This document shows, in pieces, positions 39,530 to 46,182 of a stretch of 51,160 nt of DNA. Position 1 is the first letter of the stretch. Every line of letters starts with the position of its first letter. Under the pieces are notes generated by a model that saw nothing but the letters and a program-made list of their open reading frames with translations, made no database searches and was not told the DNA's origin. The stretch is from an uncultured Clostridia bacterium (GTDB taxonomy: Bacteria > Bacillota > Clostridia > Christensenellales > CAG-917): the NCBI GenBank assembly GCA_947165815.1, contig CAMVBZ010000003.1:1-51160 (forward strand), read 5' to 3'. Position numbers and translations under genes: made by a program.

Positions 39530-40462
39530 TTAATCTGCAAATAAAGGTGTAGATAAATATCTGTCTCCTGTATCTGGCAATAAAACTACTATGTTCTTTC
39601 CTTCATTTTCCTTTCTTTGTGCTAATTTAATTGCTGCATTTAGTGCTGCACCTGAAGATATTCCAACTAAAACACCTTCGCTCTTTCCAAGTTCTTTTCC
39701 TGTTGCAAATGCTTCTTCGTTTTCAATAGTTATGATTTCATCATAAATCTTTGTATCTAAGACATCTGGAACAAATCCTGCACCAATTCCTTGAATCTTA
39801 TGTGCTCCTGCAACGCCTGTAGAAAGAACAGCTGATGTTGCTGGTTCAACTGCAACTACTTTTACATCCTTTTTCTTGGATTTTAAGTATTGTCCTACAC
39901 CAGTAATTGTTCCACCAGTACCAACACCTGCTACAAAAATGTCTACTTTTCCATCTGTATCTTCATAAATTTCTGGCCCAGTTGTCGCAAAATGGATTGC
40001 AGGATTGGCTGGATTAACAAATTGTCCTGGTATAAAACTGTTTTCTATCTCTTCTTTGAGCTCATTTGCTTTAGCAATTGCTCCTTTCATACCTTTTGAT
40101 CCTTCTGTTAATACTAATTCTGCTCCATATGCTTTCATGAGTTGTCTTCTTTCAACAGACATGGTTTCTGGCATTACTATTATGATTTTATAGCCTTTTG
40201 CAGCTGCAACAGATGCAAGTCCTATACCAGTATTTCCAGAAGTTGGTTCAATAATTACTGAATCTTTATTTAATAATCCTTTCTTTTCTGCATCATCTAT
40301 CATTGCTTTAGCAATTCTATCTTTTACAGATCCAGCTGGATTAAAATATTCTAATTTCGCTAAGATTTTTGCCCTTAAATCATATTTTGCTTCTATATGT
40401 GTTAATTCTAATAATGGTGTCTTTCCAATTAGTTGGTCTGCACTTGTATAAATTTTGCTCAT
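39530..40462 (-). CDS. cysK: Cysteine synthase
   Basis: [14 protein letters not shown]...[19 protein letters not shown]...[13 protein letters not shown]...[15 protein letters not shown]. Confidence 0.96.
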
Positions 40463-40478
40463 TTTATATATCCTCCTA

Positions 40479-41762
40479 TTATTTTACTGCTTCAAATGCT
40501 TGCTCTAGGTCTGCAATGATATCGTCTATATGTTCTGTGCCTATAGATAATCTAATTGTTGTAGGTCTAATTCCAGCTTCTAATAACTCTTCTTCTGTAG
40601 ATTGGCTATGTGTTGTACTAGCTGGATGAATAACTAAAGACTTAACATCTCCTACGTTTGCAAGAAGTGAGAATAATTTTAAACTCTCTGTAAACTTCTT
40701 TGCCTTTTCTTTGTCTCCCTTAATATCGAAAGTAAAAATAGATGCTGCACCGTTTGGGAAATATTTGTCATAAATTTCTTTCTTGTGTCCTGTTGCTTGA
40801 GATGGATGATTTACTCTTTCAACTTGTGGATGATTCTTCAAATATTCAACAACTTTTAATGCATTATATACATGTCTTTCTAATCTTAGAGACAAAGTCT
40901 CTAATCCTTGTAAAAGTAAAAATGAATTAAATGGAGATATTGCAGCACCTTGGTCTCTTAATAATGTAGTACGAATCTTAATAATGTATGCAAGATTTCC
41001 AACTGCTTGTGTGAATATTACCCCATGATATGATGGATTTGGTTTTGTTAATCCTGGGAATTTATCATTTTGTGTCCAGTCAAATTTGCCTGAATCTACA
41101 ATGACACCGCCCATTACAGTTCCATGTCCACCAATAAACTTTGTTGCTGAATGAACAACTATATCTGCACCATATTCAATAGGTCTTAAATAATATGGAG
41201 TTGCAAATGTGTTATCTACTATTAAAGGAATTCCGTGCTTGTGTGCAACTTTTGCAATTGCTTCTATATCAATAGCATCTGAATTAGGATTTCCTAGAGT
41301 TTCAGCAAAAATAAGCTTTGTATTGTCTTTAATTGCTTTTTCGAAATTGTTTGGATCATCTGGATTAACAAATGTGCATTCAATTCCTTGTTCTTTTAAA
41401 GTATTTGCAAATAAATTGTGTGTTCCGCCATAAATGTTTGTAGATGAAACAATATGGTCGCCACTAACTGCTATATTTTGAACTGCATATGTAATTGCAG
41501 AAGAACCGGAAGCTGTAGATAATGCAGCTGCACCTCCTTCAAGTGCTGCTATTCTTTGTTCAAATATGTCTGAAGTAGGATTCATTAATCTTGTATAAAT
41601 GTTTCCACCTTCTGTTAAAGCAAATCTTCCAGCTGCTTGTGCTGAATCTTTAAATACATATGATGTTGTTGCATAAATTGGTACTGCTCTTGAATCAGTA
41701 GCAGAATCAGGTCTCTCCTGACCAACATGTACTTGTAGTGTCTCAAATTTTAGCTGTGACAT
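40479..41762 (-). CDS. metY: O-acetylhomoserine sulfhydrylase
   Basis: [44 protein letters not shown]...[24 protein letters not shown]...[14 protein letters not shown]. Confidence 0.95.
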
Positions 41763-41807
41763 AATTTTATTCTCCTCTTTTGAGTTTGTTTTTTTGAATT
41801 TTTCTAC

Positions 41808-41845
41808 ATTATATTTTTGTAATACCTAGTTTGTCAATAGGTTTT
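41808..41845 (-). promoter_or_regulatory. Promoter of metY-cysK-iscS-iscU with overlapping putative Rrf2 operator
   Basis: Minus strand TTGACA-N18-TATAAT; plus-strand TAGT-TTGTCAA-TAGGTTTT (41827-41845), also readable as inverted ACCTA/TAGGT arms, overlaps the -35. Confidence 0.65.
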
Positions 41846-41858
41846 ATAGGTTTTTTAA

Positions 41859-41895
41859 TAAAAAATTTTGGATGATACTTTTTCATACCATCCAA
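41859..41895 (-). terminator. Terminator downstream of the Rrf2 gene
   Basis: Minus strand TTGGATGGTAT-gaaaaa-GTATCATCCAA then AATTTTTTATT. Confidence 0.75.
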
Positions 41896-41913
41896 TTTGT
41901 AAATCTATATATT

Positions 41914-42345
41914 TTATATATAGTAATCTCCGTTTGACGTTTTACCTTTATCTATTAAATCTTGAAGAGTTACGCTATCTAAGTAATTATTAATTGTATC
42001 TTGGAGTCCTTTCCAAAGCGGAAGTGTCAAACATTCAGCAGCTCTTGGACACTGAATTGTCTCATTATTTAAGCAAGCAACAGGAGCAAGTCCACCTTCT
42101 GTTTCTCTTAATATATCTCCAACTGTATATTTATCTGGATTCTTAGCTAGCTTATATCCACCTTGAAATCCTCTATTTGTTTGCAAAAATCCAGCTCTAG
42201 ATAATGTAGGAATAATCTGCTCTAAATACTTTTTAGATATTTCCTGTCTTTCTGCAATGTCCTTAAGTGGGACAAAATCATCTGACGAATGTTGTGCTAA
42301 ATCTAACATCAATCTTAATGCGTATCTTCCTCTTGTTGATATCAT
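41914..42345 (-). CDS. Rrf2-family transcriptional regulator (IscR/CymR-like)
   Basis: MISTRGRYALRLMLDLAQHSSDDFVPLKDIAERQEISKKYLEQIIPTLSRAGFLQTNRGFQGGYKLAK; cysteine triad CLNNETIQCPRAAEC. Confidence 0.93.
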   Translation of the reverse strand: MISTRGRYALRLMLDLAQHSSDDFVPLKDIAERQEISKKYLEQIIPTLSRAGFLQTNRGFQGGYKLAKNPDKYTVGDILRETEGGLAPVACLNNETIQCPRAAECLTLPLWKGLQDTINNYLDSVTLQDLIDKGKTSNGDYYI

Positions 42346-42372
42346 AACTCTCTCCAAAATTTTAATACCCTT

Positions 42373-43046: not shown

Positions 43047-44666
43047 TTATTTCTTTCTCTTATTCATTGGTACATAAACATTTCTTGTTCCAACGTGAAT
43101 ATATTGTGGACGTATAATCTTTCCTGCAACTAAGAGTTCTTCCATTCTGTGTGCACTCCATCCAACTACTCTAGATACTGCAAATAAAGGAGTAAATAAT
43201 TCATCTGGTATTCCAAGCATTCTGTATCCAAATCCACTATAGAAGTCTACATTTGGACATACACCTTTATAAATCTTTCTCTTCTTTGCAATGAGTTCTG
43301 TTGCAAATGTTGCTACATCTGTATAGAGTTTATATTCATCTTCTAAGCCTTTTTCGATAGCCAAATTCTTTATATATTCCTTGAGGACTACTGCTCTTGG
43401 ATCAGATAATGTATAAACAGCATGTCCCATACCATAAATAAGACCCTTTCCATCAAATGCTTTCCCATCTAAGATATCATTAAGATAATTATAAACTTCG
43501 TTCTCATCTCTCCAATCAGATACACTCTTCTTTAAATCGTCCATCATTTGTACAACCTTTAAGTTTGCACCACCATGCTTTGGTCCTTTTAATGAACAAA
43601 GTGCAGCTGCAATTGCAGAATATGTGTCTGTTCCTGTAGATGTTACAACATGAGTTGTAAAGGAAGAGTTATTACCACCACCGTGCTCAGCATGTAATAC
43701 TAAGTAAGCATCTAATAATTGTGCTTCTGTATCTGTGAATTTTCCATCTGGTCTTAATAAGTAAAGAATGTTTTCAGCAGCTGAATACTCTGGATTTGGA
43801 TTATGAATAATTAAACTTTGATTCTCATTATAATGTATATAAGCTTGATAACTATATATAGCAAGCATCGGAAATACAGCAATGAGTTTCAAACTTTGTC
43901 TCATAACGTTTTCTAATGTAATATCATTAGATTTAGTATCATAAGCAGCCAAAGTTAATACGGATTTTGCCATAGAATTCATAATATCACTTGTTGGAGA
44001 TTTTAAAATAACGTCTTTAACAAAGTTACTTGGAAGAGTTCTATAGTTTGTTAATGTCTTTGTAAATTGATCTAACTCTTGTGCTGTTGGCAACTTTCCA
44101 TTTAATAATACATAACATGCTTCTTCATATGCTCTATGACGAACTTTGTCTGCATGATCTACTAAGTCTTTAACATCATAACCACGGAAGAACAATTCAC
44201 CTTCCATTGGATAGATATTCCCATTCTCTATATACTTACCATTAACTTCAGAGATTTTTGTAAGTCCAGCTTTAACACCAATTCCACGAATGTCTCTTAA
44301 TCCTTTTTGAACATCATATTTATCAAATAAATATGAATCAATGCTAGAAGCCTCTACAAAGTTCTTCTCCATATGAACAACATTGTCTGTAATCTTGTTT
44401 TGTGCACGATTAGACTTTTGATATGATTCCAATAAGGATTCATACATAGCATAGTTGTCCGCATTGGTTGTAACTAAGAAGTCTACAGTTACATTAAAAA
44501 TATCTGCTAGAATTGGTAAAAAACAAATATCAGGTAATCCAGATCCTGTTTCCCATTTAGAGACCGTCTTGTCACTAATATTCAATTTTTGTGCTAGTTC
44601 TTTTTGTGTCCAATTGTTTTGTTTTCTTAAGAATGTAATAATTCTCCCTAAACTTTTAGCAGTCAT
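43047..44666 (-). CDS. XRE/Cro-type HTH domain fused to citrate synthase
   Basis: N-term SLGRIITFLRKQNNWTQKELAQKLNISDKTVSKWETGSGLPDICFLPILADIFNVTVDFLV (HTH_3); then YDVQKGLRDIRGIGVKAGLTKISEV...AEHGGGNNSSFTTHVVTSTGTDTYSAIAAALCSLKGPKHGGAN...YGMGHAVYTLSDPRA (citrate synthase); one uninterrupted ORF. Confidence 0.93.
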   Translation of the reverse strand: MTAKSLGRIITFLRKQNNWTQKELAQKLNISDKTVSKWETGSGLPDICFLPILADIFNVTVDFLVTTNADNYAMYESLLESYQKSNRAQNKITDNVVHMEKNFVEASSIDSYLFDKYDVQKGLRDIRGIGVKAGLTKISEVNGKYIENGNIYPMEGELFFRGYDVKDLVDHADKVRHRAYEEACYVLLNGKLPTAQELDQFTKTLTNYRTLPSNFVKDVILKSPTSDIMNSMAKSVLTLAAYDTKSNDITLENVMRQSLKLIAVFPMLAIYSYQAYIHYNENQSLIIHNPNPEYSAAENILYLLRPDGKFTDTEAQLLDAYLVLHAEHGGGNNSSFTTHVVTSTGTDTYSAIAAALCSLKGPKHGGANLKVVQMMDDLKKSVSDWRDENEVYNYLNDILDGKAFDGKGLIYGMGHAVYTLSDPRAVVLKEYIKNLAIEKGLEDEYKLYTDVATFATELIAKKRKIYKGVCPNVDFYSGFGYRMLGIPDELFTPLFAVSRVVGWSAHRMEELLVAGKIIRPQYIHVGTRNVYVPMNKRKK

Positions 44667-44688
44667 GGAATTACCCTCCTTTTTCAAC

Positions 44689-44711
44689 ATTGTTACTACA
44701 ACCTTAACAAT
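44689..44711. promoter_or_regulatory. Perfect inverted repeat, candidate operator for the HTH-citrate synthase
   Basis: ATTGTTA-ctacaacct-TAACAAT, about 22 bp upstream of the start codon at 44666. Confidence 0.6.
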
Positions 44712-44793
44712 AAAAAAGGAAAAAGTAAAGTATTTTATTCTACTAAACCGAATTATCTTGTGTTATTTTCTCTACTATGCGTAGATAATTAAT

Positions 44794-46182
44794 TTAACCC
44801 TTAAAATTCTTTTCAATAATATCAGCCATACAACCAGCATCTTTCCAAAGTTCATCGGCCTTTAAGCACCATTTTTCAAATTTCTTTGTTTTCTTTGGGA
44901 AAGATTTATAGTGTTTTTTAAGCTTACTTGCTTTACGCAAGGATTTTACAATGTTACTAATCGTAGATTTTCTTATGCCACCATTTGCTCTTGCATCTAT
45001 GATTTTATTTCCCAAATTAAGGATTTGTCCTGTTGTCATTTTATTAGCAAAAGCATAATTCATTTGTGTCATAACAGCCTCATCAAAGACAATGTTATGT
45101 TTGAATTCGTATTCATTCTCATCTTTTGTGGTGTCTATTGCCCCTACAAGCGTTGCCATAAGTTCGGCAAAGTTTGCACCTTGAGTACGTGAATACTTAA
45201 CATTTATAGGCCATAGAGCTTCTTTAGTAGGATAATTCCCATCTTTCATGGCATTTTCTACAACATCAGCAGCGATCATACAAAGATTCCAAGATGCTGT
45301 TACACCTTCACCGCTATATGGTTTAGTAATTGCAGCGCTATCTCCTATACATAGGAATCCATCTGAAACCAAAGAATAAAGAGCATGTCTATATGGAGTT
45401 GTTCCCTTTTCAATTTTTGGTTCTCCAACCATTTCAGGTAAATGTATTGTATTTTCAAAATCTTTATACACAGACTCTGCATATTCATATGAAAGGTTTG
45501 CGCCAATACCAATAACAGCGCCCTCTGGATCATCGGATGGTGCAATCCAAGTCTTATAATATGGATATGCTGTAGAAGTATTTGGTTTTTCTTTAATAGG
45601 ATCTGCCAATTTTACGTATCTTAGTATCACGTAGAACATATCCCTAGGAGATAAAGGTGTATTTTCAATACCATAGTCATCTGGCAATGCACAACGAACT
45701 GGAGCGTTAATACCAGAGCAATCTACAACCAATCTACAATAAAGGTCTTCTTCACCTTCTGCATTTCTAATTTTTACACCACAGATTTTCTTGTTTTCAT
45801 CAAAAATGAATTCTCTGAATTCAGTACTAAATTCATACTGCACTCCAAAACGCTTAGACCAAGAATGTAAATGATGGTTAAATCTCTCGAGATTAAATAC
45901 AGTAAATGGATACAATGTCTTCTTTGGATAATGGCCATATGCAGATTCGCACATGGTATAGTCAAAAGATGTAATATATTCAGGATCTCCTTCACCTAGA
46001 CGTGGAATGCCTGTCTTATCAAAATACACGCTATCTACGTGGAAAACAGTCAATCTCTTTCCAATTTCTTTTTCTGGAAGAGCATCTATTACTAAAGTAC
46101 TAAATCCTTTCTCTGCCATTAGTTTAGCAAAGTATGAACCTGCTGTTGCAGCACCAACAATTACTATATCAAATTCTCTCAT
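44794..46182 (-). CDS. FAD-dependent oxidoreductase, geranylgeranyl reductase-like family
   Basis: FDIVIVGAATAGSYFAKLMAEKGFSTLVIDA...RLVVDCSGINAPVR...FLCIGDSAAITKPYSGEGVTASWNLCMIAADVV. Confidence 0.8.
   Translation of the reverse strand: MREFDIVIVGAATAGSYFAKLMAEKGFSTLVIDALPEKEIGKRLTVFHVDSVYFDKTGIPRLGEGDPEYITSFDYTMCESAYGHYPKKTLYPFTVFNLERFNHHLHSWSKRFGVQYEFSTEFREFIFDENKKICGVKIRNAEGEEDLYCRLVVDCSGINAPVRCALPDDYGIENTPLSPRDMFYVILRYVKLADPIKEKPNTSTAYPYYKTWIAPSDDPEGAVIGIGANLSYEYAESVYKDFENTIHLPEMVGEPKIEKGTTPYRHALYSLVSDGFLCIGDSAAITKPYSGEGVTASWNLCMIAADVVENAMKDGNYPTKEALWPINVKYSRTQGANFAELMATLVGAIDTTKDENEYEFKHNIVFDEAVMTQMNYAFANKMTTGQILNLGNKIIDARANGGIRKSTISNIVKSLRKASKLKKHYKSFPKKTKKFEKWCLKADELWKDAGCMADIIEKNFKG

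Follow-up and report, generated by a model that had tools for sequence, protein, structure and literature searches.

A sole citrate synthase fused to an XRE-type helix-turn-helix domain in a narrow lineage of Clostridia, and its probable role as a regulator of its own gene

Through citrate synthase, acetyl-CoA and oxaloacetate are committed to citrate and glutamate. Within the window, by which we mean the whole 51,160-nucleotide stretch of an uncultured Clostridia bacterium that was analyzed (contig CAMVBZ010000003.1), one gene joins this enzyme to a DNA-binding domain of the XRE type, raising the question of whether a single protein both makes citrate and regulates transcription. The best reading of the sequence is that it encodes a natural bifunctional, probably autoregulating trigger enzyme, so that the only citrate synthase of this genome would probably also be a gene regulator acting on its own promoter. 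The idea was put forward as plausible in an initial annotation of the locus, and it gains support from a true fusion, an intact active site, and a helix-turn-helix (HTH) domain that has been maintained. The gene and its parts are located as follows.

43047-44666, minus strand: XRE HTH-citrate synthase fusion gene, 539 amino acids (open reading frame, Pfam and NCBIfam profiles, orthologues of the same architecture)
44475-44648, minus strand: XRE/Cro-CI HTH domain, residues about 7-64 (Pfam HTH_3, dN/dS, predicted helices)
44391-44474, minus strand: linker at residues about 65-92, in which a helix is predicted at 72-89 (structural model and the point from which unfused relatives align)
43050-44390, minus strand: complete PRK14032-type citrate synthase (Citrate_synt, NF010635, invariant catalytic residues)

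The minus-strand reading frame is open throughout 43047-44690, with no interruption, and HTH_3 and Citrate_synt profiles match in the one frame, as the initial annotation of a single XRE HTH-citrate synthase reading frame had it. Its start was placed too far upstream, at ATG 44690: this codon sits upstream of AAGGAGGG, the ribosome-binding site that precedes ATG 44666, and the latter is the start common to all four fusion orthologues. Translation most likely begins at ATG 44666, which gives the protein of 539 amino acids. The other three orthologues are found in two congeners, G040 (JAFZVB010000014, from rumen; 95% identity) and G041 (CAMZEU010000073; 93%), and in a second genus of the family, G042 (JAQUST010000002; 60% identity overall and 58% in the HTH). 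The four fusion loci therefore represent only two independent genera. All genomes are draft assemblies, at least G040-G042 being metagenome-assembled; an assembly error at the junction between HTH and synthase, which had been named as a possible refutation, is excluded by the identical junction in four independent assemblies. In the comparison of the window genome (G000) with G040, HTH and linker have a dS of 0.78-0.89 and the synthase part one of 0.31, a contrast that hints at recombination inside 43047-44666. Beside the gene, at 39530-42357, a cysK-type synthase, a Cys/Met PLP enzyme, and an Rrf2 regulator lie in a row, which looks like a CymR/IscR-type cysteine regulon.

The N-terminal domain is a canonical Cro/CI HTH, as first annotated, with an HTH_3 match above the curated cut-off at residues 13-64 (E=3.5e-12); the HTH of the G042 fusion is matched at 2.5e-13. 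Its recognition helix lies at ISDKTVSKWETG, and the segment ISDKTVSKWE within the recognition helix is unchanged between the two genera, where the identity of the HTH is only 58%. Between congeners, dN/dS is 0.02-0.08 in the HTH (dS 0.74-1.56) and 0.06-0.09 in the synthase domain; judged by these ratios, the HTH is under purifying selection and constrained as much as the enzyme part. An AlphaFold model of the fusion, built from 17 sequences and with a mean pLDDT of 80, contains five HTH helices with block-mean pLDDT mostly of 82-93 (71-75 for the last helix) and a C-terminal part with the citrate synthase fold. The linker had been estimated at about 50 amino acids, and is closer to 25, because unfused relatives align only from about residue 85-95 of the fusion protein. 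The part added by fusion is thus the HTH and a linker of about 25 amino acids, the length of which is nearly constant across both fusion genera.

The remainder of the protein is a full citrate synthase. The Pfam Citrate_synt profile matches residues 130-521 (E=7.1e-115), and NF010635 (PRK14032, NCBIfam) scores 664.5 bits against a cut-off of 426, with residues 95-537 of the protein covering positions 6-448 of the 448 in the model. All three sequence blocks expected from the first reading are there: HAEHGGGN from residue 325, GPKHGGAN from 361, and SDPRA from 421. The active site is also intact, in that H328, H364, and D422 and the arginines R499 and R519 are invariant in 17 of 17 aligned sequences; we take the first three to be the catalytic residues from general knowledge of citrate synthases and alignment to 1iom. 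No second citrate synthase was found in the window genome, which makes the fusion the sole copy, and the genome also encodes aconitase and isocitrate dehydrogenase. On these grounds, the parsimonious reading is of an active enzyme that would supply 2-oxoglutarate and glutamate synthesis.

The distribution of the fusion was assessed in samples of the order (396 genomes), class (391), and phylum (399), which overlap slightly and amount to about 1,190 Bacillota genomes in all. Citrate synthases of the PRK14032 type are present in several hundred of them. Outside the two fusion genera, none of the best-scoring matches listed reached into the HTH, in a survey that could miss a fusion to an unrelated type of HTH. 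Possible hidden fusions were looked for by reading, one by one, the longest open frames that hold an unfused citrate synthase; these contained no HTH, and a search of the fetched loci with an HMM of the fused HTH identified no other citrate synthase reading frame that carries one. An XRE gene adjoining unfused citrate synthases was considered as donor of the domain; the flanks of these genes contain few HTH matches, none of them adjacent. In a tree of 106 citrate synthase domains, the four fused domains group together (support 94), separately from the unfused enzymes of their own family. As judged from this tree, the architecture arose once, by fusion in a narrow lineage with a citrate synthase of separate ancestry. 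The enzyme half was matched in only 16 of 43 genomes of the family, scattered over unrelated parts of the synthase tree. The stem of the window genus is very long (1.28 changes per column), with the active site intact, and a shift in constraint on the synthase after fusion is possible.

Two inverted repeats and a predicted promoter lie upstream of the gene.

44701-44729, minus strand: predicted promoter, -35 TTTACT (44729-44724), 17-bp spacer, -10 TAAGGT (44706-44701), from sequence comparison
44689-44711, no strand assigned: ATTGTTA-N9-TAACAAT dyad, overlapping the predicted -10 and +1 (exact in the sequence; comparison of the four loci)
44771-44785, minus strand: TCTACGCATAGTAGA (TCTAC-N5-GTAGA), 15 bp, candidate operator at -119 from the start codon

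The dyad singled out at first was ATTGTTA-N9-TAACAAT, which is indeed perfect at 44689-44711. It is not beyond chance. Perfect arms of at least 7 bp with a spacer of 3-16 were obtained in 27% of 1000 dinucleotide shuffles of the 127-bp AT-rich intergenic region (P=0.27), and 23% of 127-bp pieces of the window contain such a repeat. It was suggested to check whether the dyad accompanies the fusion in orthologues: it is perfect in G040, with 9-bp arms (P=0.03), degenerate in the right arm in G041 (CTTGTTA-N9-TAACGCT), and absent from the upstream region of G042. Conservation of the arms (11 of 14 columns, P=0.13) is not significantly above that of the whole region, and could be explained by promoter constraint since the dyad overlaps the -10 and start of transcription predicted from TTTACT-17-TAAGGT. 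Genome-wide, 27 sites match with at most one mismatch versus 33 in the reversed control, so that no regulon is visible, and the only other exact copy in the window genome is inside a coding sequence. Furthermore, its half-sites are 16 bp apart from centre to centre, unlike those of a simple XRE operator. As a conserved operator it is not supported; the repeat may be a product of chance or a second element.

The other dyad, TCTAC-N5-GTAGA, is found at all four fusion loci, at -119 in the window, -118 in both congeners, and -112 in G042, where it reads TCTAC-N5-GCAGA with one mismatch. From centre to centre its half-sites are spaced by 10 bp, a single helical turn, which fits what is expected of the site of an XRE dimer. 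Within the genus, none of the 10 arm columns varies (P=0.006). For G042, a sequence with no more than one mismatch is expected by chance somewhere in 300 nt with P=0.003, and such a match within 10 nt of -118 appeared in none of 3000 shuffles. Upstream of unfused citrate synthase genes, in 33.6 kb of DNA, the dyad occurs at 0 of 102 loci. In G042 a different gene lies upstream, and a terminator-like hairpin followed by a T run separates that gene from the dyad, which argues that the dyad belongs with the fusion gene. The alternative that it is the terminator of the upstream gene was discarded, as no terminator was found and the dyad is kept in G042 despite the different neighbour. These comparisons make TCTAC-N5-GTAGA a better operator candidate than the ATTGTTA dyad, and the best candidate at the locus. 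A two-mismatch copy of the dyad, TCTACGATTAGTAAC at 44953-44967, lies in the coding end of the upstream FAD oxidoreductase gene and is identical in the three congeners; it may reflect coding constraint or be an auxiliary site.

The position of the candidate operator bears on how it might work. The predicted TTTACT-17-TAAGGT promoter lines up with a strong TTTACT-17-TATAAT in G042; it is weak in the window and was missed by a consensus scan, which gives ATAACA-18-TAGAAT at 44766-44737. Some 84 bp separate the TCTAC dyad from the predicted start of transcription downstream of it. So long a distance is unusual for a simple XRE repressor, and would call for activation or looping. From this geometry, activation or looping is as possible as repression.

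Further sites were sought across genomes. Each of the three congeners has exactly two copies of an extended motif, TCTACGNNT[A/C]GTAGA, and the other 40 genomes of the family have none; these counts are not independent of the definition of the motif, which was refined on the same sites. In all three congeners, the second site lies between a galU-like nucleotidyltransferase gene and a divergent Na/Pi cotransporter-PhoU gene.

L191:2961-2975 (G000:C20:6460-6474), L195:3027-3041, and L198:3014-3028: second-site copies in the orthologous intergenic region

The two sites of any one genome agree with each other, position 10 being A in G000 and G040 and C in G041, which is expected if one protein reads both sites. 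The extended motif is absent from the galU regions of G042 and G022. Genome-wide, there are fewer matches to the TCTAC dyad with up to two mismatches than in the control. This rules out a broad regulon, and any regulon would be very small, with at most a couple of targets. There is no matching site upstream of icd, nor in the 74 bp that are readable upstream of acn.

A mechanism can be proposed from these features. One ancestral fusion placed an XRE-type DNA-binding domain before the sole citrate synthase, and the two have not been parted since. Production of citrate for glutamate synthesis is most likely still a function of the protein. As a citrate synthase dimer it most likely carries a pair of HTHs that bind a dyad located upstream of its own promoter, for which TCTAC-N5-GTAGA at 44771-44785 is the best candidate. 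Binding of oxaloacetate and acetyl-CoA closes the citrate synthase fold; most likely the linker passes this on to alter DNA binding, and the enzyme would then be synthesized in step with its own occupancy by oxaloacetate or acetyl-CoA. Catalysis, DNA binding, the identity of the bound dyad, the direction of regulation, and control by ligand are all inferred from sequence here. We consider it slightly more probable than its opposite that an ancestral fusion has been kept in which a citrate-making dimer binds its own upstream dyad and its synthesis follows ligand occupancy. The more specific proposal, that an active XRE-citrate synthase senses oxaloacetate or acetyl-CoA at its active site and controls both its own gene and the galU-Na/Pi locus through TCTAC-N5-GTAGA, is tentative and, taken whole, unlikely.

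The nearest precedent is BzdR, an XRE HTH fused to a shikimate-kinase-like domain, which has no enzyme activity in its natural form (PMC3602430). Q1 is a synthetic chimera of the BzdR HTH and active E. coli shikimate kinase; it dimerized, was catalytically active, and bound operators, and the ligand of the enzyme released it from DNA in vitro in a manner that required the linker (PMC3602430). In vivo, the retained catalysis of Q1 blocked induction by the ligand (PMC3602430), suggesting that an active fusion might be a plain autoregulator without sensing. BzdR and Q1 share with the fusion the order of XRE HTH, linker, and C-terminal enzyme fold, and a ligand of that fold as the proposed effector. 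The fusion differs from BzdR in its citrate synthase domain, which keeps the catalytic residues and is the sole copy in the genome, and with this domain in place of a shikimate-kinase-like one it falls outside the BzdR subfamily. By analogy, it would be in nature what Q1 is as a laboratory intermediate.

Several other explanations of the protein need to be weighed. It could be an active synthase whose HTH binds DNA in plain feedback on its own promoter, with no sensing of metabolites, the fusion merely tying protein level to gene expression. Selection on the HTH, a dyad that tracks the fusion, and the small number of candidate sites in the genome all fit this, as does the behaviour of Q1, which bound DNA and repressed while catalytically active and showed no induction in vivo (PMC3602430). 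The conserved, probably helical linker speaks instead for coupling. Citrate synthases also undergo a strong conformational change on binding oxaloacetate, from which a coupled HTH would be hard to insulate, and we regard regulation without sensing as unlikely. It is more doubtful again that the HTH is a non-regulatory appendage, serving folding, oligomerization, or localization in what is simply a citrate synthase. Such a role would accord with an ATTGTTA dyad at chance level and with finding no acn or icd target, but would leave unexplained the strong purifying selection on the HTH, its unchanged recognition helix, and the dyad that tracks the fusion. The reverse case, a synthase domain that has lost enzyme activity and acts only as a ligand sensor, as in BzdR, draws on the altered constraint suggested by the long genus stem (1.28 changes per column). 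Set against the invariant His/His/Asp and substrate arginines, a synthase dN/dS of 0.06-0.09, and a genome that has no other citrate synthase although aconitase and isocitrate dehydrogenase are present, it seems very improbable.

A separate doubt, compatible with any of these explanations, concerns the operator. The TCTAC dyad may serve another regulator, with the fusion binding elsewhere, for example at the ATTGTTA dyad over the -10, and this has an appreciable chance of being correct, though one short of even. The second conserved copy lies between galU and the Na/Pi cotransporter gene rather than beside TCA genes, the TCTAC site is far from the promoter, and the ATTGTTA dyad, with its 9-bp arms in G040, is well placed for repression. 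Nevertheless, the absence of the dyad at all 102 unfused loci and of the extended motif in the 40 other genomes of the family is as expected if these sites follow the fusion.

Trigger enzymes with built-in DNA-binding domains, often autoregulating, are well established in PutA, BirA, and NadR. Like the fusion, these combine enzyme and regulator in one chain; they are proven cases with other enzymes and other DNA-binding folds, whereas the fusion is a prediction. Enzyme-HTH fusions are already known, and what is new is an XRE domain on an intact, sole citrate synthase. The stand-alone PRK14032-type citrate synthases of Clostridia (NF010635) are mostly 55-60% identical to the enzyme half over its full length, and none of the relatives examined outside the two fusion genera has an HTH. 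No paper on a fusion of an XRE or any other HTH to citrate synthase was found in the literature searched, which covered few subscription papers. To our knowledge, an active intermediate between enzyme and regulator has previously only been built in the laboratory. If the proposed role is correct, central metabolism could hardly have a shorter feedback loop than this direct link between active site and DNA, and the protein would be a natural enzyme caught partway to a regulator while still the sole copy. This would make the enzyme-first hypothesis for the origin of regulators directly testable, and might provide a ready-made biosensor for oxaloacetate or acetyl-CoA.

Caulobacter CitA is a citrate synthase with a role in the cell cycle that is independent of catalysis (PMC7083601); it is a regulatory citrate synthase like the fusion, but a text search of that paper returned no mention of an HTH, and the mechanism is unrelated. 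In Alphaproteobacteria, HTH_17/MerR-type proteins such as WP_236762366.1, from an Agrobacterium fabrum plasmid, likewise carry an HTH N-terminal to a citrate-synthase-family domain. Its HTH is of the MerR/excisionase type (PF12728 at E=8e-6, just under the curated cut-off; PF13411 above the cut-off) and its synthase domain is shorter and divergent, in contrast to the XRE HTH and intact synthase described here. The gene for WP_236762366.1 (L216:1384-2661), annotated only as ‘citrate synthase family protein’, is head-to-head with a stand-alone citrate synthase gene, and its product looks like an unstudied regulator or hetero-oligomer partner. Of the neighbouring genes citB and citC in Caulobacter, citB is active and citC did not complement gltA (PMC7083601), and the two may be the same kind of pair as that in Agrobacterium.
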